Shown here: piece by piece, positions 6,575 to 55,357 of the stretch | Layout of the letters: each line of letters opens with the position of its first letter | Numbering within the stretch: the first letter of the stretch is position 1 | NCBI RefSeq assembly: GCF_016765695.1 | Contig: NZ_JAETGO010000059.1 | Span: forward strand, 1 to 64,000 | Source of the DNA: Sporosalibacterium faouarense | Lineage (GTDB): Bacteria; Bacillota; Clostridia; Tissierellales; VENL01 | DNA length: 64,000 nt | Reading direction: 5' to 3' | Position numbers and translations under genes: made by a program | The notes under the pieces: generated by a model | Seen by the model: the letters and a program-made list of their open reading frames with translations, nothing else | Told to the model about the DNA's origin: nothing | Databases searched by the model: none

Positions 6575-7444
6575 ATGGATTATATTAAAATGATAGAAAG
6601 TATTATTAAATATATTGAAGAAAATTTAGAGGAAGAATTAAGATTAGAAGAACTTGCACAGAAATGCTATTTATCTAAATATTACTTTCATCGAATTTTC
6701 TCGGCTGTTATGGGATGCTCTTTGAAAGAGTACATTAATCAACGTCGATTAAATAAAGCATTATCCTATGTATTAGATACTTCTAAATCTATAGTAGAGA
6801 TTGCCTATAAATTACAATTTGGATCTCAAGCCTCTTTTACTCGGGCTTTTAAAAACAAATTTGGATTTCCACCAGGTCGAGTACGTAAAGAATCAGAGGG
6901 GTTAAAACCTTCTCCTATTCCATTGGTAGTCAGAAGAGTAATGAAGAACTTTAATAGTGATGTAGTTACTGACTTTACATTTGTTGAGAAAGAAAGAGAA
7001 GTCCTAACAGGTTTTTATATGGATGTAGATTTATTAGATGAAGACATTCAATACAAAGTAAATAGTAAGGCTGAAAATCTTCTGAAGTCTATAAAGTCTA
7101 GTGAAGCATATAATGCTTTTGCAGTCTATTTTTATGATGAAGATAAAAAGAAAAAAAGTTGTATTCCAACGTTTTTCGGAATTGATTTAGAATCGAAAAA
7201 TCAAAACTTAAATTGGCAGACATATGAGATACCAAGTATGCTTTATGCAAAATTTCGATATGTAGGTGATTTGCTGTATATAGGTGATACTGTTGTTACA
7301 GATTTAAAAAGATGGATGAAGATATCTAAAATTGAAATGATTGAAACGGAAATATCTTTTATACAAGCCTATGATAAGGAATACGACGAAAATGGTTTGT
7401 TTAATATTTATCTACCAATTGGAGAAATACCGCAAGAAATGTAA
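6575..7444 (+). CDS. AraC family regulator with GyrI-like effector domain
   Basis: The N-terminal 106 residues form a double helix-turn-helix AraC domain. The first recognition region is LEELAQKCYLSKYYFHR and the second includes VEIAYKLQFGSQASFTRAF. Residues 125 to 289 resemble the GyrI/Rob-type small-molecule binding fold. This N-terminal HTH order is typical of Rob/SoxS-like effector-sensing regulators. ATG 6575 follows TAGGAG by eight bases; an upstream in-frame start at 6542 has no ribosome site. The flavoprotein gene starts 55 bases downstream and may be co-transcribed or regulated by it. Confidence 0.8.
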   Translation: MDYIKMIESIIKYIEENLEEELRLEELAQKCYLSKYYFHRIFSAVMGCSLKEYINQRRLNKALSYVLDTSKSIVEIAYKLQFGSQASFTRAFKNKFGFPPGRVRKESEGLKPSPIPLVVRRVMKNFNSDVVTDFTFVEKEREVLTGFYMDVDLLDEDIQYKVNSKAENLLKSIKSSEAYNAFAVYFYDEDKKKKSCIPTFFGIDLESKNQNLNWQTYEIPSMLYAKFRYVGDLLYIGDTVVTDLKRWMKISKIEMIETEISFIQAYDKEYDENGLFNIYLPIGEIPQEM

Positions 7445-7498
7445 AGAATAGATACCTCCTTTAAATTATACTAAGAGTAGAAAAAAGGAGGTTATCAT

Positions 7499-8212
7499 AT
7501 GAAAATCGTTGCATATAATGGAAGTCCAAAGGGAAAAAATAGCGTGACTCATCTTATGCTTGAGGAAGTATTAAAAGGAGCTAGAGAGAAAGGTGCAGAG
7601 ACTGTTAACTATACGCTCTCAGAGAAGAATATCAAGCATTGTAAGGGATGTTTTCATTGTTGGTTTGTGGAGAAAAACAAATGTATTCTAAATGATGATA
7701 TGGAAGAGGCTATGTCTCATTTTGAGGATCTTGATATCCTTATATTAGGTACTCCACTTTATTTTGATAATGTATCTGGGATGCTAAAGGTATTTTTAGA
7801 TAGGTGTATTGCCTATGGGTCATACTTTATAGAAAAAGATGAACATGGAGAAAGTAAGCACATTGATGCCTATAAGGAAAAGCATAATGGGAAGCCAGCT
7901 CCCAAAATTGTTATAATTAGCAACGGAGGATTTGGAGAAAAAAGTCAGTTTCAAGCTTTAGAGTTTATGATGAATCGAATGGCAAGAAATATGAGTTCAG
8001 AGGTTATTGCAAAAATATTTAGAGGACAGGGTCCTTTACTAGGCATGAAGGATGAAAAGTTGAGGCCAATTATTGATGATTATCGAAAATTGCTTCAACA
8101 GGCTGGTAGAGAAATAGTTATGGATAAATGCATTAGTATAGAAACACAAGAAAAGTTAGATATTCCACTTATACCTGTGGATATATATAACCAACAGATT
8201 AATAATAGATAA
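7499..8212 (+). CDS. Iron-sulfur flavoprotein-like NAD(P)H-dependent oxidoreductase
   Basis: A flavodoxin-fold FMN reductase. It begins MKIVAYNGSPKGKNSVTH, the FMN phosphate loop, and has the PLYFDNVSGMLKVFLDR motif of the NADPH-dependent FMN reductase family. Four cysteines, Cys48, Cys51, Cys54 and Cys62 (C-x2-C-x2-C-x7-C), match the compact 4Fe-4S binding motif of archaeal and clostridial iron-sulfur flavoproteins. The likely role is electron transfer or reduction of quinones, oxygen or peroxides. AGGAGG lies upstream of ATG 7499. The preceding AraC gene is the probable regulator. Confidence 0.78.
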   Translation: MKIVAYNGSPKGKNSVTHLMLEEVLKGAREKGAETVNYTLSEKNIKHCKGCFHCWFVEKNKCILNDDMEEAMSHFEDLDILILGTPLYFDNVSGMLKVFLDRCIAYGSYFIEKDEHGESKHIDAYKEKHNGKPAPKIVIISNGGFGEKSQFQALEFMMNRMARNMSSEVIAKIFRGQGPLLGMKDEKLRPIIDDYRKLLQQAGREIVMDKCISIETQEKLDIPLIPVDIYNQQINNR

Positions 8213-47530: not shown

Positions 47531-49552
47531 TTATTCTTTTTTAAGAATCTTGCTATAATAATCTGTCTCTAAAATTTTAGCAGAGAAGTGAAACTTGCTG
47601 TCTACAAAGGCAGATACTTTATCAATATAGTCTTGGTTAACCTTTATGCCATCTACTGGTGTGAACCTTCCAGTTTTTGCATCATACCGTCCTTTATCTG
47701 TTATAAAGCTTTTATCTAGAAAAACTACTAAAGGTGTTGAGTTGGAGAATATATCACTGCCCATAAGTAGTCTGGAATCATATTCTAGTCCCAACAGATT
47801 AGAAATAGTTGGATTAATGTCAAGACTTGAACAAGGTTTGTCTATCGTAATAGGCTCAATATTCTCTGTATATATAATAAGAGGACTTTTGTAAAGTTCA
47901 AAGGTGTGTTCAACATCGTGACCTGCAAGTTCATCTATTGTTTTATATTCTAGTCCATATGGATAGTGATCAGCGCTCATAACTATTAGAGTCTTATCTG
48001 CGAGACCTGCTTCTTCTAGTTCTTTTAACAAATATTCTAAAGCTTTATCTAGCTCTATTTGAGTTGCTATATAAGCCTTAGCTTGTTCTGAGTATGGCAA
48101 ATCTGCTACATATTCCTTATTCTTTAATGCGATATAATTTCCTGAAAAAGAATACTGCATATGTCCACTTACAGTCATATAATAAGCATGAAAAGGCTCT
48201 TCATTTATGTACTCAGGAATTGTTTTCTCCATCATTTCTATATCAGATTCAGGCCAAGTTTCTTTTACGTCGAGACCATGACCTAGAGCTTTATATTCAT
48301 AACCCATATTTGGATGAGATATATCCCTTCTATAATAAGAATAGGTATGATTGTGATAGGCTATAGTTTTATAACCAATATCTTTAAGTTGATTACCCAT
48401 TACAAATGGTAGTTCTATTGCTCCTGATTTATAAAAACTCCAAACACCACTTTTAGGAATTAATCCTGTACATGCCACATATTCACCATCGGAGGTGCTT
48501 ACTCCCCAAATAGGATTATAGAAATTTGTGAAATTATAACCTTTATGGACCATTTTATATAAAGTCGGAGTAAGGTCTTTATTCACTGCATAGGGAGAAA
48601 AGCTTTCAGCAGTTATAAATATTAGATTGTAGCCTTCGTACTTTCCTGTAAATTCATTCTTAGCAGTTGGCTCTAAATTACTAAAATATGTATGAATTGC
48701 TTTAATATTCTTATTTTCTTCATTAGCAATAAGCTGGCCGAAAGGTATATCTAGAATATTGTATTCAATCTTAACTCCCTTAACCTTCTTTTCAATTGCT
48801 GTAGCATTTTTGAAACCATTACTATCTTCAGTTAATACATTATCTAATAGTATTTTTTCACTAGGACTCAAATTAGTAGGTAAATATGCAGTGGTTGAAA
48901 CTTCGACTACTGGTGACCACCCAGAAACAAGTCTTTGTAAATCTATACGCATGGTAGTAATGAGTCCGATTTTCTGAATTGAAAGAATCGGATAATTATT
49001 TTTGAAATAGAGGTCATAGGCAGAGTACTGACCACTATTATTCATATATACAGTTCCTACACCTATTAAATGAGATATGAGTATTAAGAAAATAAAAATA
49101 ATTCTAGGTAATTTACTTATCTTACTAAAAGAAAGCATCTTTTTGCCTAAAATAATTATTAATATAACAGGAATGAAAAATAATAAAATCCAAAAAGAAT
49201 TTTTAACTGTAGCTGATAGTATATCTTTCCAAAAATCTAAGATTTGGGCAGAGTTTCCTGCTGAATATAAGCTGTAGAATGTCCTAAAGAATTTGAAATA
49301 TATGAACTGAGAGGCAAAAATGAAAGAAACTACTGTGAGTAAGGCGATGGATAATATATGATTAATTTTATCTTTGAATAGGCTACATATTAAGTACAAT
49401 ATTATTGAAAGAGAAATTAGAAATATTAATGATATAATTAATCCAGACGTTAAAATTTTAGTGGAAGTAGCTATTCTAAAAATTATTTCCATAAAAAATA
49501 GTGATAACATGAAATAAATTAATAAACTAAAGGGTTTTTTGAATTTTAACAT
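47531..49552 (-). CDS. LTA synthase family sulfatase-fold membrane protein
   Basis: The 673-residue protein has five TM segments in the first 190 residues, then an extracellular sulfatase/alkaline-phosphatase domain. The catalytic region is WGVSTSDGEYVACTG (Thr nucleophile in LtaS) with LIFITAESFSPYAV (metal Glu) and VMSADHYPYG (Asp-His metal ligands). Such enzymes transfer glycerol phosphate from phosphatidylglycerol to build lipoteichoic acid or related polymers. It is a single leftward gene; GGAG lies upstream of ATG. Confidence 0.9.
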   Translation of the reverse strand: MLKFKKPFSLLIYFMLSLFFMEIIFRIATSTKILTSGLIISLIFLISLSIILYLICSLFKDKINHILSIALLTVVSFIFASQFIYFKFFRTFYSLYSAGNSAQILDFWKDILSATVKNSFWILLFFIPVILIIILGKKMLSFSKISKLPRIIFIFLILISHLIGVGTVYMNNSGQYSAYDLYFKNNYPILSIQKIGLITTMRIDLQRLVSGWSPVVEVSTTAYLPTNLSPSEKILLDNVLTEDSNGFKNATAIEKKVKGVKIEYNILDIPFGQLIANEENKNIKAIHTYFSNLEPTAKNEFTGKYEGYNLIFITAESFSPYAVNKDLTPTLYKMVHKGYNFTNFYNPIWGVSTSDGEYVACTGLIPKSGVWSFYKSGAIELPFVMGNQLKDIGYKTIAYHNHTYSYYRRDISHPNMGYEYKALGHGLDVKETWPESDIEMMEKTIPEYINEEPFHAYYMTVSGHMQYSFSGNYIALKNKEYVADLPYSEQAKAYIATQIELDKALEYLLKELEEAGLADKTLIVMSADHYPYGLEYKTIDELAGHDVEHTFELYKSPLIIYTENIEPITIDKPCSSLDINPTISNLLGLEYDSRLLMGSDIFSNSTPLVVFLDKSFITDKGRYDAKTGRFTPVDGIKVNQDYIDKVSAFVDSKFHFSAKILETDYYSKILKKE

Positions 49553-49753
49553 TAGTGTTATCTCCTTTCATTTTATATTATAGTATAATATGAATTAATA
49601 TACGATTATTATATTTAGACAATATGACTGTGAAATAATGGTATTCATATCATTGTAAATAGCATTATGTTGATGGAACTGCATTACATAATTACTATTA
49701 TCTAATACCCTGTTTTTCATATACTAATAAGATATTCAAGGAGGACAAACTAT

Positions 49754-50473
49754 ATGAAGAAAAAAGCGTTAATAGGTGTACTTATATTAATATTATTAAT
49801 AGGAATGTCATACATAGTCTATAAAGTTATGAATTCAAGAACATTTCAATTAATGGGAGAAATCATACAAAAGGCTGATACAGAAGAAAAGGTTGTTGCA
49901 ATTACATTCGATGATGGACCAACTGATAATACAGATAGTATTTTAAAGATATTAAATGACGCTGATATTAAGGCAACCTTCTTTTTAACTGGGAAAAGTA
50001 TAGAGGAAAATCCAGAGGAAACTAAGAAAATTGTTACAGCTGGACATGAGTTAGGAAATCATACGTATTCTCATAAGAGAATGGTTTTCAAATCGCCTTC
50101 CTTTATTAAAGAAGAGATTAATAAAACAGACAAACTTATTAGAGAAGCTGGTTATAAAGGTGAAATACATTTTAGGCCTCCAAATGGTAAGAAGTTAGTG
50201 TTCTTGCCTTACTATCTAAATAAGAAAGATAAAAAAACAATTATGTGGAATATTGAGCCTGACTCATATCCTGAAATAGCTAAGGATAAAGATAAGATAG
50301 TCAAATTTATAAATGACAATATAGAACCAGGATCAATTATACTTTTACATGTAATGTATGATACTGAAGAAAGAAAATCACTAGAATCTATAAAGGATAT
50401 AATTTTAAATTTGAAAGAAAAAGGATATGAGTTTAAGACAGTTTCAGATTTATTAAAATATAGTGATAAATAA
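49754..50473 (+). CDS. Polysaccharide deacetylase (NodB domain)
   Basis: The N-terminal segment ALIGVLILILLIGMSYIVY is a TM or uncleaved signal helix. The NodB domain follows: TFDDGPT (Asp base and metal Asp), GNHTYSHKRM (metal His pair), RPPNGKK, and ILLHVM. It should remove N-acetyl groups from peptidoglycan or another cell-surface glycan. It is divergent from the LTA-synthase gene, so both may serve envelope maintenance. AAGGAGG precedes the ATG. Confidence 0.9.
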   Translation: MKKKALIGVLILILLIGMSYIVYKVMNSRTFQLMGEIIQKADTEEKVVAITFDDGPTDNTDSILKILNDADIKATFFLTGKSIEENPEETKKIVTAGHELGNHTYSHKRMVFKSPSFIKEEINKTDKLIREAGYKGEIHFRPPNGKKLVFLPYYLNKKDKKTIMWNIEPDSYPEIAKDKDKIVKFINDNIEPGSIILLHVMYDTEERKSLESIKDIILNLKEKGYEFKTVSDLLKYSDK

Positions 50474-50613
50474 ATTATTAACATGAGCTTCAGAAAAGCG
50501 AATAAAAATATATTCTATGTCTGTGAATTGTAATGGGGAAGGAAAGAGATGATGATTATAGAAATATAAAATGAACTAATAATTTAGTCTCGTTATTATA
50601 ATTGGGAGGAGAG

Positions 50614-52026
50614 ATGGGAATGAAACTTAAAATACTACATATCAATGATTTGCATAGTAGATTTGAGAATTTAGCCAAAATATCTACTATAATTAAAAAT
50701 CTCGAGGATGACAATACCATTATTTTAGATGCTGGAGATAATGCAGACTTTATGAGAATTGAAACAGAAGGAACAAATGGGGAAGTAAGTTCAGCTATAT
50801 TAAATAAAATAGGATTTGATGCCAGAGTTTTCGGGAATAACGAAGGCTTTGCAGGGAAAGAAAAAGGAAAAGTGATTTCTAAAACTAGCGAGTTTCCGAC
50901 AGTGACATGTAACTTATATCATTCAGATGGTGAGAAGCTAGAATACTTAAAGGATGCCATAGTAATAAATAAAAATGGTATTAGAGTACTTATAATTGGA
51001 GTTACGGCACCATATAATGAATTTTATAATTTATTTGAAGTCCATGCAAAAGAACCAATTGATGAAATAAGAAGGGTTTTACAAAATTATTCAAAATCAC
51101 AATATGATATGGTTGTATTATTATCTCACTTAGGACTGAGAGAGGATAAAGAGCTAGCTGAGAAGATAGGGGAAATTGATGTAATTATTGGTGGACATAG
51201 CCATAGCATACTAGATGAACCAATTAGTATAAACGAAACTATTATTCATCAAGCAGGAAGCTATGGAGAGTTCTTGGGAGAGTTAAGTGTTGATTATGAT
51301 ACTCGAGAGAATAGAATTACGGATTATTCAGGGAAATTAATTAAGAGTAGTGATTACAGTGAAGACCAGGAAGTTATAAGTATAATAGAAGAATATAGTC
51401 TAAAAGCAAATGAATATTTAAGCAAACCACTTTTTAAGATAGAAAAAATATTAACTCACTCTCTCTCGGAAGAAAATGATATTGGCAATCTATTAGCAGA
51501 TGCTCTAAGAGACGTATTAGGTACAGATATAGGAATAATAAACAGTGGTGTAATGAATAAGGGAGTAGAAACTGGGTCTATTTCTAAAAAAGAACTACTA
51601 GAAATATGTCCATCTCCATTAAATCCTACTTATATAGAAATACAAGGAAAGGATTTATTGAATGCACTAGAAAAATCGTTATTAGCAGAATACCATAATG
51701 CCGATGGCAAAGGTTCAGGCTTTAGAGGAAAGTGGCTGGGGAATATCCAAGTTTCTAGTAATGTTACGGTAAAATATAGGGAAGAGGAGCAGCCATTGAG
51801 CAAAATAGAGAATATTACTATTAATGGAGAGCTATTAAATCTCAAAAGATGGTATACTGTAGGGACATCAGACTATCTTCAGAGAGGTACAGGTTATTCA
51901 GAATTAGCAAATTGTAAAAACGAAAGATATAATCCAGAGTATTTAAGAGATACTTTAGAGGATTATCTAAAAAAACAAGAGTTCGTTTCCAAAGCCTTTA
52001 AAAGAAGATTTATAAAAGTAGGATAA
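50614..52026 (+). CDS. YunD-like metallophosphatase/5'-nucleotidase
   Basis: Residues 3-215 form a calcineurin-like phosphoesterase domain (HINDLHSRF; LDAGDNADF; GNNEGF; LSHLGLRED; GGHSHS) and 265-430 the 5'-nucleotidase C-terminal domain (NDIGNLLADALRDVLG; DLLNALEKSL; RGTGY). The usual GNHE is GNNE (Asn76), as in Bacillus YunD, so the catalytic His of the UshA dyad is absent; this is a subfamily trait. No signal peptide is present, so it acts in the cytoplasm. ATG 50614 has GGAGG six bases upstream. Confidence 0.85.
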   Translation: MGMKLKILHINDLHSRFENLAKISTIIKNLEDDNTIILDAGDNADFMRIETEGTNGEVSSAILNKIGFDARVFGNNEGFAGKEKGKVISKTSEFPTVTCNLYHSDGEKLEYLKDAIVINKNGIRVLIIGVTAPYNEFYNLFEVHAKEPIDEIRRVLQNYSKSQYDMVVLLSHLGLREDKELAEKIGEIDVIIGGHSHSILDEPISINETIIHQAGSYGEFLGELSVDYDTRENRITDYSGKLIKSSDYSEDQEVISIIEEYSLKANEYLSKPLFKIEKILTHSLSEENDIGNLLADALRDVLGTDIGIINSGVMNKGVETGSISKKELLEICPSPLNPTYIEIQGKDLLNALEKSLLAEYHNADGKGSGFRGKWLGNIQVSSNVTVKYREEEQPLSKIENITINGELLNLKRWYTVGTSDYLQRGTGYSELANCKNERYNPEYLRDTLEDYLKKQEFVSKAFKRRFIKVG

Positions 52027-52172: not shown

Positions 52173-52543
52173 ATATAAATAAAAGAGTTATTTATACTTC
52201 AATTAATATAAATAGCTTATAGCTAGAAAGATTTTTGACTTGATATTTTAAACAATAAGAAAAATTTTAAGAGAAAGGGGTTAGATAGTAAGAGTGGAAT
52301 TGTAAAACTAATTTAGAATTATATATCAGATTTGTTAAATACTATTGGTATGGAAATAGCATAATGATTTAATTTAAGAGGATTATCACTTTTCTTAAGA
52401 CAAGATTTATAGTAGAATGAAATTATCAAGAATTAACAAAACGTAAATACTTAAAGATAAGTATAACTAATATGTGTGTAGAATTGACAATAGATATACA
52501 AATTAAAAGATAGTTTGCGATTTTTTTATGAGGAGATGGATTA

Positions 52544-53728
52544 ATGAAGAATAAAGCTGTTATTCTAGGAGCTAATTATTACATAGGACTTAGTGCTATT
52601 CGTTGTCTAGGAATTCATGGAATAGAGGTTGTGGCAGTTGATTACTCATGGAAAGGAACTTATGGATTTTATTCAAAATATTGCTCAGAAACTCTTATAG
52701 CACCACATTATAAAAAAGACTCTAAAGGATTAATTGAATTTCTGATTGAGTACGCTAAGAAACAGAATGAGATACCAGTCCTAATTCCGTGTGGAGACCC
52801 TTATGTGGAGCTTATAGACGAGTATTTGTTGACTCTGAAAGAGTACTATTTAATACCTCAAACGGAGCAAGGACTCTATACTAAGGTAATGAATAAGGGA
52901 ACTCTACATAGCCTTGCAGAGAAGCACGAAGTTGCTGTTCCAGAGACAGTAAAAATTGATGATGAAAACTTTAGACAAAAAGTAGAAGAAATTATTAAGT
53001 TTCCATGCTTAGTTAAACCCACTGATTCCCCAACTTTTGTATCAATTTTCAGGAAAAAAATGTTTACAGTTAACAATATGCAAGAGTTAGATGAAGCAGT
53101 AGAGAAAGCTAAAGATGCAGGGTTAGAAGTCATTATACAAAGAATTATTCCAGGATTTGACGATCATATGCATACATTTGACGCATATTTAAATCAAGAT
53201 GCTAAAGTGACTCACTGGTTAACCTGTCAGAAATATCGTCAATATCCAATCAATTTTGGTGCATCTGTATATACAGGACAAAAGTATATTCCAGAGCTAT
53301 ATGATATTGGGGCAAGATTCTTAGAGGACATTGGATTTAAAGGATTTGCAGAAATAGAGTTTAAAAAGGATGCTGAAACAGGAAAGTTTTATCTAATAGA
53401 AGTGAATGTAAGACTTTCCAATCTCAATAGTTTAGTATATAAAGCTGGACTTAATATGCCTTATATAACTTATAGAGATTTGATTGGAAATCCTTTAGAG
53501 CCTAAAGCAATTAAAAATAATACAAAGTTAGTTTTTTGGTATGCCTATGAAGATATTTTAGCGGTAAGAAACTATATTAGAAAAAAACAATTGACTATAT
53601 CGCAGGTATTAAGGTCATACTTTCAACCAAAGGCTTATGCTATATGGGATTGGAAAGACATCAAGCCAGCTTTAGTCTTCTTTAGAACAAAGGTCGGACG
53701 TGCTTTTAAAAAAATATTTAGTAAATAA
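52544..53728 (+). CDS. ATP-grasp carboxylate-amine ligase
   Basis: A 394-residue ATP-grasp enzyme. The N-terminal pre-grasp domain is Rossmann-like (AVILGANYYIGLSAIRCLG), the ATP-binding strand is FPCLVKPTDSPTF, and the metal motif at the end is FAEIEFKKD...YLIEVNVRLS with catalytic Glu and Asn. It resembles D-aspartate ligase and other peptide-bond forming ligases. A basic C-terminal region of about 60 residues (RNYIRKKQ...FRTKVGRAFKK) may lie on the membrane. GAGGAG precedes ATG. A Mur-ligase gene follows after 52 bases, so both probably act on one pathway, perhaps of cell-wall peptides. Confidence 0.8.
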   Translation: MKNKAVILGANYYIGLSAIRCLGIHGIEVVAVDYSWKGTYGFYSKYCSETLIAPHYKKDSKGLIEFLIEYAKKQNEIPVLIPCGDPYVELIDEYLLTLKEYYLIPQTEQGLYTKVMNKGTLHSLAEKHEVAVPETVKIDDENFRQKVEEIIKFPCLVKPTDSPTFVSIFRKKMFTVNNMQELDEAVEKAKDAGLEVIIQRIIPGFDDHMHTFDAYLNQDAKVTHWLTCQKYRQYPINFGASVYTGQKYIPELYDIGARFLEDIGFKGFAEIEFKKDAETGKFYLIEVNVRLSNLNSLVYKAGLNMPYITYRDLIGNPLEPKAIKNNTKLVFWYAYEDILAVRNYIRKKQLTISQVLRSYFQPKAYAIWDWKDIKPALVFFRTKVGRAFKKIFSK

Positions 53729-53780
53729 GAAAAGAAAAAAATTCAAAATACATTTTGATAAGTGAAGGGAGATAACAATC

Positions 53781-55322
53781 GTGAAATTATTTGATTTGCT
53801 ACAAGCAGTCGATGTTGTTGAATCGTGGAACAAAAAGAATATCGATATTAGTGGTATAGCTTACCATTCAAAAAAAGTCGCTCCCGGAGATATTTTTGTT
53901 TGTATAAAGGGCTATAAAACAGATGGACATCGTTATGTAATGGGGGCAATAGCTAATGGAGCATCTGCCATTATCGTTGAAGACTATCAAGAAGGGTGGG
54001 ATATTCCTCAAATCAGAGTTGAAGATAGTCGCAAGGCATTAGCGGCATTAAGTGATGAATTCTATAACAATCCGTCAAAGGATATGAAGATTATTGGAAT
54101 TACTGCTACTAATGGGAAGACGACCACATCTTTTATGACTAATGCAATCCTAGAAGGTCATGGACTAAAAACTGGGCTTATAGGAACGGTAAAGGTTAAA
54201 ATAGGAGATAGCTATGAGCCTTCTAAACTAACCACACCAGAATCACTAGATTTGCACCATTACTTTGCTAAAATGAGAGACCAAGGTATAACTCATGTTA
54301 CCATGGAAGCATCATCTTCGGCTCTATATCTTAAAAGAGTAGGTAATGTCGATTTTGATATTGTGACTTTAAACAATATTAGTAGAGAGCATATTGACCT
54401 ACATGGTTCCTTTGAAGAATATTTTGAAAGTAAATCGAGCTTAATTAAGAATGCAGGACCAGATAAATGGGCCATACTGAACTTAGATTGCCCATATTCT
54501 TCATCTCTAATAGATAGTACACAGGCGCAAGTGTTAACTTTTGGCGTTGAGAGGAGAGATGGACATTTAGCATGTAAAAACTTAGATTTATCCACTGGTA
54601 GAGCAAAATTTACTGTAGAAATAGGTAGATCTTTTAAAGTAGGGAATATAAGATATGAGCCTAGGAGTTTTGATATTGAGCTTTCAGTTCCTGGATATCA
54701 TTCGGTTTATAATTCGATGGTAGCTATTTCAATTGGATTATTATGTGGTATTCCAATTTCTACTATACAAGAGAGTATAAAGAGTTTTAATGGAGTAGAG
54801 AGAAGATTTGAATTTATATTTGAAGAAGATTTTAAGATTATAGACGATCATTTTGCCAATAGTGGAAATATTGATGTAACTTTAGGGACATTGGATTTCA
54901 TGGACTATAATAATCTAAATTTAGTATATGCTATTAGAGGTGGACGAGGTCCAACTGTGAATAGAGAAAATGCTGAAACGATTGTTAAGTGGGCATCTAA
55001 GCTTGGAATATCAGAAATAGTAGCTACGCTAAGTAAATCTCATGTGACTGATAAGGATATAGTTACGGAAGAAGAGCTAGAAGTTTTTTTAGAAGTAATC
55101 TCTGATGCAGGTATTAAGGTTCAATTATATGAGGAGCTACCACAAGCTATATCCCATGCACTAAAAAATGTAGGGGATAATGATGTAGTTTTATTATCTG
55201 GATGTCAAGGAATGGATTATGGTGCTCAGATTGCATTGGAGCAGCTACACAAGTTGAGACCAGAGATAGATAAGAAGAGATTATTTGCACCTCTTGAAAA
55301 TAGAGTAGCAGGAATAATATAA
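53781..55322 (+). CDS. MurE-like Mur ligase with non-canonical C-terminal domain
   Basis: A 513-residue Mur ligase beginning at GTG 53781 (AGGGAG upstream). Residues 20-90 resemble the MurE UDP-sugar domain but DSR is HSK. The P-loop is GITATNGKTTTSF; NISREHIDLHGSFEEYFESKSSL holds the carbamylated-Lys region. Departures from MurE are many: MEASSSALYL for MEVSSHAL, GVERRFEF for VPGRME, and no DNPR amino-acid-specificity motif (the region reads ATLSKSHVTDKD). It should ligate an amino acid or amine to a carboxylate using ATP, but probably not as the cell's main MurE. It is paired with the ATP-grasp ligase. Confidence 0.78.
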   Translation: MKLFDLLQAVDVVESWNKKNIDISGIAYHSKKVAPGDIFVCIKGYKTDGHRYVMGAIANGASAIIVEDYQEGWDIPQIRVEDSRKALAALSDEFYNNPSKDMKIIGITATNGKTTTSFMTNAILEGHGLKTGLIGTVKVKIGDSYEPSKLTTPESLDLHHYFAKMRDQGITHVTMEASSSALYLKRVGNVDFDIVTLNNISREHIDLHGSFEEYFESKSSLIKNAGPDKWAILNLDCPYSSSLIDSTQAQVLTFGVERRDGHLACKNLDLSTGRAKFTVEIGRSFKVGNIRYEPRSFDIELSVPGYHSVYNSMVAISIGLLCGIPISTIQESIKSFNGVERRFEFIFEEDFKIIDDHFANSGNIDVTLGTLDFMDYNNLNLVYAIRGGRGPTVNRENAETIVKWASKLGISEIVATLSKSHVTDKDIVTEEELEVFLEVISDAGIKVQLYEELPQAISHALKNVGDNDVVLLSGCQGMDYGAQIALEQLHKLRPEIDKKRLFAPLENRVAGII

Positions 55323-55326
55323 ATTT

Positions 55327-55357
55327 AAAAGATGATCATTTAGTGATCATCTTTTTT
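55327..55357 (+). terminator. Hairpin terminator of the ligase pair
   Basis: AAAAGATGATCA pairs with TGATCATCTTTT around five bases, followed by TT. It lies five bases after the Mur-ligase stop. Confidence 0.9.

Follow-up and report, generated by a model that had tools for sequence, protein, structure and literature searches.

An ATP-grasp ligase and a MurE without the DNPR motif that probably build an A4beta-like peptidoglycan precursor

Introduction

What do an ATP-grasp ligase and an adjoining MurE-like ligase without the usual specificity motif make? The two genes lie in the 64,000-nucleotide stretch of Sporosalibacterium faouarense DNA that we analysed (contig NZ_JAETGO010000059.1; hereafter, the window). 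A sequence-only reading of the pair had proposed either an isopeptide-linked polymer or a modified wall peptide, and had called the product undescribed. The A4beta wall type (L-Orn-D-Asp or L-Orn-D-Glu) is a classical taxonomic trait that is determined chemically.

Results

The gene pair and its conservation

The two adjoining open reading frames, with the altered motifs that had been reported, were confirmed on the + strand. The features are:

52530-52539, + strand: Shine-Dalgarno-like stretch ahead of the ATP-grasp gene, read from the sequence
52544-53728, + strand: ATP-grasp amino-acid ligase, probable D-aspartate ligase (AslA-like, divergent), 394 aa, ATG start; assigned by homology and a model
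53764-53773, + strand: Shine-Dalgarno-like stretch ahead of the MurE-like gene, read from the sequence
53781-55322, + strand: MurE-type UDP-MurNAc-tripeptide synthetase of a DNPR-less clade, probably L-ornithine-adding, 513 aa, GTG start
55327-55355, + strand: strong terminator-like hairpin (13 pairs, z -6.4), then a T run, 3' of the MurE gene

The gap between the two genes is 52 bp, and from this spacing we judge that they probably share one transcript. The shared terminator that had been proposed is backed by the 13-pair hairpin and its U run, but a consensus terminator scan scored the same hairpin on the - strand only, and that scan found no excess of terminators over shuffled sequences (1 found, 1.1 expected). 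Upstream of the pair (47531-52026) are sulfatase-type, polysaccharide deacetylase, and 5'-nucleotidase genes.

A scan of named-species genomes gave 132 pattern matches and 114 relatives, and we used the best 80 of these 114 for locus counts. These 80 include Halobacillus (up to 72%), Psychrobacillus, Ornithinibacillus, Alkalibacterium, Acetoanaerobium, Tissierellia, and others; many are metagenome bins. MurE is preceded by the ATP-grasp gene in 51 of the 80: as an open reading frame on the MurE strand in 50 (gap from -37 to 272 bp), and as a contig-edge piece in one (L064). The proposed adjacency of the two families is thus conserved. At four loci (L079, L081, L084, and L091), the contig ends too near MurE to judge whether ATP-grasp is present. 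In another 25 of the 80 the upstream sequence suffices and ATP-grasp is absent from the locus: nine Psychrobacillus, Bacillus sp. FJAT-22090, two Chryseomicrobium, Tetzosporium, Ornithinibacillus caprae, and 11 metagenome bins. Absence of the pairing from relatives had been named as evidence against the idea. Two genomes from the window organism's own family (85% and 89% complete) do have no member of the MurE clade at E 1e-60, but the pairing is present in those 51 of the 80.

Among the same 80 loci, a member of one racemase cluster follows the pair in 41 (within 78 bp in 38), and none occurs at a locus without ATP-grasp. The window pair has no adjoining racemase; the window genome encodes an Asp-type racemase on another contig. 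The one representative of the racemase cluster that we scanned passes both TIGR00035 and the cysteate-racemase model, and so does the window genome's racemase. Because the tested racemases pass the Asp-type and cysteate models alike, family membership does not fix their substrate.

Two variants of the locus are worth recording. Clostridiaceae bacterium M8S5 has tandem ATP-grasp copies upstream of MurE (L055:5487-6668 and 6684-7985). Another set of loci, from metagenome bins that are mostly Syntrophomonadaceae (L078, L081, L084, and L087-L094), has the MurE clade with neither ATP-grasp nor racemase; by eye, a conserved membrane-protein-like gene follows MurE in 11 loci and an aminopeptidase-P-like gene precedes it in 7.

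We also searched a set of 24 carriers, made up of the window genome and 23 others picked from the best 80 of 114 to span the named genera. A close ATP-grasp (E < 1e-190) was found in 18. Five genomes from Psychrobacillus, Chryseomicrobium, and Tetzosporium have no close ATP-grasp; each encodes a distant ATP-grasp away from the locus (E about 1e-30 to 1e-31) that is a candidate to add D-Glu. Ornithinibacillus caprae has no close ATP-grasp at the locus or elsewhere in its genome (the best weak match is at 2e-17).

The Mur ligase has a probably rebuilt substrate site

The protein encoded at 53781-55322 contains all three Mur-ligase domains (Pfam) and passes the MurE subfamily model TIGR01085 (285 bits; cut-off 257.3). 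Its best NCBIfam model is NF001126, annotated as a DAP ligase, at 321 bits (below the cut-off of 373). It does not reach the L-Lys MurE equivalog NF010628 (198.5 bits against a cut-off of 536). MurE types lead its fold matches, with PAP11, the MurE-like subunit of a plastid RNA polymerase, first and S. aureus MurE (4c12) second (TM 0.80/0.83).

As a reference for the motifs, we used the window genome's own dcw MurE. The P-loop TNGKT is kept, with the preceding GT changed to AT. N111-T114 and K218, in the catalytic core, are invariant across 21 aligned sequences, and from the alignment K218 is presumed to be the carbamylated lysine. These observations agree with the earlier claim that the ATP site and the carbamyl-Lys region are retained. 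The claim that MEVSSH, VPGRME, and DNPR are all changed also holds. MEASSH of the dcw MurE (general form ME[AV]SSH) is MEASSS in the window protein, and GIKGRFE is GVERRFE. DNPR was not found, and the corresponding stretch is LSKSHVTDKD. Beyond these, D[FY]AHTP is replaced by DDHFAN, GDRD by RGxRGxxVNxENA, and GKGHE by GCQGMD. The rewritten stretches are those that hold the third amino acid, and the catalytic core is intact.

We then tested these motifs in 82 cluster members from the best 80 of 114 relatives. All but one form the clade; the exception (L070:9648-11099) is a DDLN-type MurE, described below. DDHF, RGxRG, and QGMD are present in 81 of the 82, lacking only in that DDLN-type protein. 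ME[VA]SSS is present in 72; besides the L070 protein, it is missing from eight members of the Ornithinibacillus-Paucisalibacillus group and from a second copy in Thalassobacillus. At the place of DNPR, the less strict pattern [SA]x[SG]H fits 76 of the 82, and D[ND]P[RAGK] fits none of them.

Overall, the window protein shares with the meso-DAP MurE of the dcw cluster its three Mur domains, P-loop, carbamyl-Lys position, and fold, but differs at DNPR, GDRD, GKGHE, and MEVSSH, and its gene is outside the dcw cluster. With the L-lysine MurE of S. aureus it shares the lack of the DNPR arginine and a close fold, but it also lacks DNPA and is far under the L-Lys equivalog cut-off.

Other MurE proteins and the role of the clade

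The Mur-ligase middle domain occurs eight times in the window genome. One of these proteins (L001) is a canonical MurE with DNPR, encoded between a SpoVD-like gene and mraY (neighbours assigned by eye), so the separate standard murE that had been asked after does exist. Another (L002, at 961-2409 of contig C74 of the same genome) is a DNPR-less MurE paralogue that is 37% identical to the window protein. Within 1 kb on either side of it there is no ATP-grasp gene, and its homologues (63-64% identical) occur in two other genomes of the window organism's family. (By eye, L002 is near a polysaccharide-deacetylase-like gene.)

A further MurE-like group has LTxDD[LR]N at the place of DNPR (L109, L111, L119, L120, L122, L129, L130, L131, and L070:9648-11099). 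In Alkalibacterium kapii, a MurE of this DDLN type, with the P-loop TNRKT, is directly behind the clade MurE.

Is the clade MurE a peptidoglycan enzyme? In the draft genomes of Acetoanaerobium pronyense (G017) and Acidaminobacter sp. JC074 (G018), no MurE but the clade member is over the cut-off, and the remaining matches, down to E 1e-5, score at most 86 bits. The dcw cluster in both drafts reads PBP-murF-mraY-murD by eye, without murE. With no other MurE found and no murE in dcw, we conclude that the clade member makes peptidoglycan and is not a new polymer synthase; by this sequence evidence it is the housekeeping enzyme of these two organisms. The sequence-only reading had held that the lack of any other murE would make the window protein the housekeeping enzyme. 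The window genome does have another, and it is in these two other organisms that a clade member is the sole MurE found. We are therefore highly confident that the protein at 53781-55322 is a peptidoglycan MurE. A caveat is that several carriers have a DDLN-type MurE as well; except in the two single-MurE genomes, the vegetative wall could therefore be the work of another enzyme. (Alkalibacterium gilvum has two MurE matches over the cut-off, a clade member and a member of the sister clade.)

The ATP-grasp enzyme resembles D-aspartate ligases

The protein encoded at 52544-53728 has ATP-grasp-type Pfam matches (PF07478, 32.3 bits; cut-off 24), and its predicted model (pLDDT 89) has the ATP-grasp fold. 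Biotin carboxylases and carbamoyl-phosphate synthases top the fold ranking, with PylC at ranks 5, 10, and 44. PylC joins the carboxyl group of a D-amino acid to the side-chain amine of lysine. The window enzyme is like PylC in fold but unlike it in pathway, and the two are 14-16% identical in the fold alignment. Against solved structures, the sequence has no match at 0.001; the profile matches D-Ala ligases best, followed by carboxylases and others, with weak E-values. Our alignment of the enzyme holds 20 sequences.

Aslfm of Enterococcus faecium is a D-aspartate ligase. In the Lactobacillales, the ATP-grasp profile matches 102 of 246 genomes. Seventeen of these matches are close (> 500 bits): 14 adjoin the MurE clade, and 2 of the other 3 have a racemase. 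The other 85 genomes have weaker matches (37-128 bits), mostly in frames of about 410-470 aa. We compared 13 loci from the weaker matches, which we presume to be AslA from their racemase linkage. A racemase adjoins in 12 of the 13, and the short flank includes a Mur ligase in 7. The profile matches these 13 proteins at E 5e-36 to 1e-39, and they are 21-26% identical to the window enzyme. K158, Q199, D206, E286, N288, and R290 of the window enzyme are common to all 15 AslA-like sequences compared; R232, S241, E270, and E272 are conserved on the window side, and the AslA-like sequences have other residues there. (One AslA-like protein, L187, has no match among solved structures, and two AslA-like proteins have no Pfam family at 0.001.)

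In Lactococcus lactis, AslA is reported to be an ATP-grasp D-Asp ligase encoded in one operon with racD (PMC4155827), an arrangement that these 13 loci resemble. As in the AslA-RacD and Aslfm systems, relatives of the window gene are linked to an Asp-type racemase gene; the window enzyme differs in its low identity to AslA-like proteins and in being linked to a different MurE. Taken together, it is quite probable that the ATP-grasp enzyme is a D-Asp (or D-Glu) ligase.

Wall types of the carriers

Walls with Orn-D-Asp occur in Halobacillus and Alkalibacterium, and walls with Orn-D-Glu occur in Psychrobacillus and Chryseomicrobium. Tetzosporium hominis has the clade MurE, and its locus lacks this ATP-grasp and the racemase. 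Its wall is A4beta, L-Orn-D-Glu (PMC5786688). Ornithinibacillus is given as A4beta and its neighbour Oceanobacillus as A1gamma (PMC4062624); Ornithinibacillus is among the best 80 of 114 loci listed, and Oceanobacillus is not among them. From the wall types of the carriers Tetzosporium and Ornithinibacillus, we propose ornithine as the substrate: the third residue that the clade MurE adds is probably L-ornithine.

A second MurE in spore formers

Among the 24 carrier genomes, 17 have SpoIVA over the cut-off, including the window genome, which has a DNPR MurE as well. An intact second MurE with DN[PS]R is present in 17 of the 17 genomes with SpoIVA and in 0 of the 7 without it, in this picked set of mutually related genomes. 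The motif is DNPR in 16 and DNSR in one (Anaeromonas gelatinilytica). In 15 the second MurE is of the ordinary type; in two Psychrobacillus it is divergent, with a long branch, and not of the dcw type. The seven genomes without intact SpoIVA are two Alkalibacterium, two Chryseomicrobium, Tetzosporium, Acetoanaerobium, and Acidaminobacter, and none of them has a DN[PS]R MurE at E 1e-60. With random labels, the chance of this 17/7 split is 1 in 346,104 if kinship is ignored; there were perhaps four independent losses.

Chryseomicrobium excrementi and Tetzosporium still carry broken pieces of spoIVA (with an internal TAG) and of a further murE. The Tetzosporium murE remnant (L150:1507-1857, 116 aa) carries DNPR, and by eye the reading frames around it resemble those around the intact DNPR murE of Psychrobacillus, which adjoins an amino-acid-kinase gene.

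Read most simply, this co-occurrence points to a spore-cortex role for the DNPR-type MurE. In Bacillus sphaericus, the spore cortex and the vegetative wall can use different diamino acids. A division of labour between the two MurEs, one for the vegetative wall and one for the cortex, is the reading that we favour, with somewhat less assurance than ornithine as the substrate.

History and spread of the clade

In a tree with 61 rows, the MurE clade is one group (90/87); its sisters are the second Alkalibacterium copy and then the L002 type. Bacillaceae, Caryophanaceae, and clostridial families are intermixed within the clade, which suggests transfer between them. By path, the nearest rows to the window MurE are from a Syntrophomonadaceae bin, Halobacillus litoralis, a Bacillota bin, and Anaeromonas. 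The clade MurE has a match at 1e-60 in 25 of the 200 genomes from the Tetzosporium family (one of them weak, at 35% identity) and at 1e-100 in 21 of the 159 from the Paucisalibacillus family, so the gene is scattered within both families.

Discussion

We think it likely that the pair supplies the diamino-acid part and the bridge of an A4beta-like precursor, with L-Orn-D-Asp as the likely form in place of the usual diaminopimelic acid. D-aspartate would be supplied by an Asp racemase, which is clustered with the pair at 41 of the best 80 of 114 loci and encoded elsewhere in the window genome. Using ATP, the ATP-grasp enzyme would activate D-aspartate at its side-chain carboxylate, and the activated D-Asp would be joined to the free side-chain amine of the diamino residue added by MurE, as the future cross-bridge. 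Spore formers would keep a DNPR-type MurE, probably for the meso-DAP precursor of the spore cortex. The order of these steps is what we infer.

Three other explanations have to be weighed. The pathway could be the same with another third residue: MurE would then use L-lysine (A4alpha-like) or some other basic amino acid, and D-Asp or D-Glu would still come from the ATP-grasp enzyme. L-Lys and L-Orn are one carbon apart, S. aureus MurE is the second-best fold match, and this L-Lys enzyme has no DNPR arginine either (PMC3829189). Yet the window protein reaches only 198.5 of the 536 bits of the L-Lys equivalog. Also, the third residue of Tetzosporium, the one carrier for which it was read, is L-Orn, and Planococcus, Paenisporosarcina, and Sporosarcina, which the same paper gives as L-Lys types (PMC5786688), are not among the best 80 of 114 loci listed. 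We consider this explanation unlikely. MurE could instead still add meso-DAP without DNPR, with the ATP-grasp enzyme modifying or amidating the DAP. Although its best NCBIfam model is a DAP ligase, the protein falls short of that model (321 bits where 373 are needed). In solved enzymes, the N and R of DNPR bind the DAP carboxylate (PMC3829189); these residues are absent from the 82 sequences tested, and the Tetzosporium wall contains ornithine (PMC5786688). This is the least probable of the explanations.

The two ligases could also make an accessory product outside the wall, be it a small metabolite with an isopeptide bond or a polymer like cyanophycin. Cyanophycin synthetase does unite ATP-grasp and Mur-ligase modules, the same enzyme types as in the pair, although it is a single chain with a polymer product, and there is already a canonical murE in the window genome. 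But the clade member is the sole MurE found in two genomes whose dcw lacks murE, an Asp-type racemase is present at 41 of the best 80 of 114 loci, and the cyanophycin synthetase model TIGR02068 gives the two proteins 18.8 and 76.7 bits, far under its cut-off of 850. We rejected cyanophycin-like or free-dipeptide synthesis on those scores and on the single-MurE genomes, and an accessory product of any kind seems very improbable. Of the two products that had been suggested at the outset, then, the polymer is disfavoured, and the context favours a wall peptide made with an ATP-grasp enzyme that resembles D-Asp ligases.

The suggestion that the product is not described needs dividing in the same way. 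The A4beta chemistry of the likely product has long been known. Our searches of an open-access library found no description of the enzyme clade and no paper whose title pairs an ornithine MurE with a D-Asp ligase. As far as those searches reach, what is new is the clade itself, its cassette, and the way in which the MurEs divide their labour.

How did the clade come to be so scattered? One scenario, for which we see the chances as about even, is a horizontally spread cassette: a previously unrecognised ornithine-specific MurE clade with a rebuilt amino-acid pocket, accompanied by a divergent D-Asp ligase and a racemase of its own, took over the vegetative wall in many lineages of Bacillota, and the ancestral DAP MurE became specific to sporulation and was lost along with it.

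If our assignment holds, then the wall type would be readable from genomes. The clade would be a natural variant of MurE specificity that lacks DNPR and has its pocket rebuilt. There would also be a genetic rule, testable across species, for when the spore cortex and the vegetative wall differ in their diamino acids.
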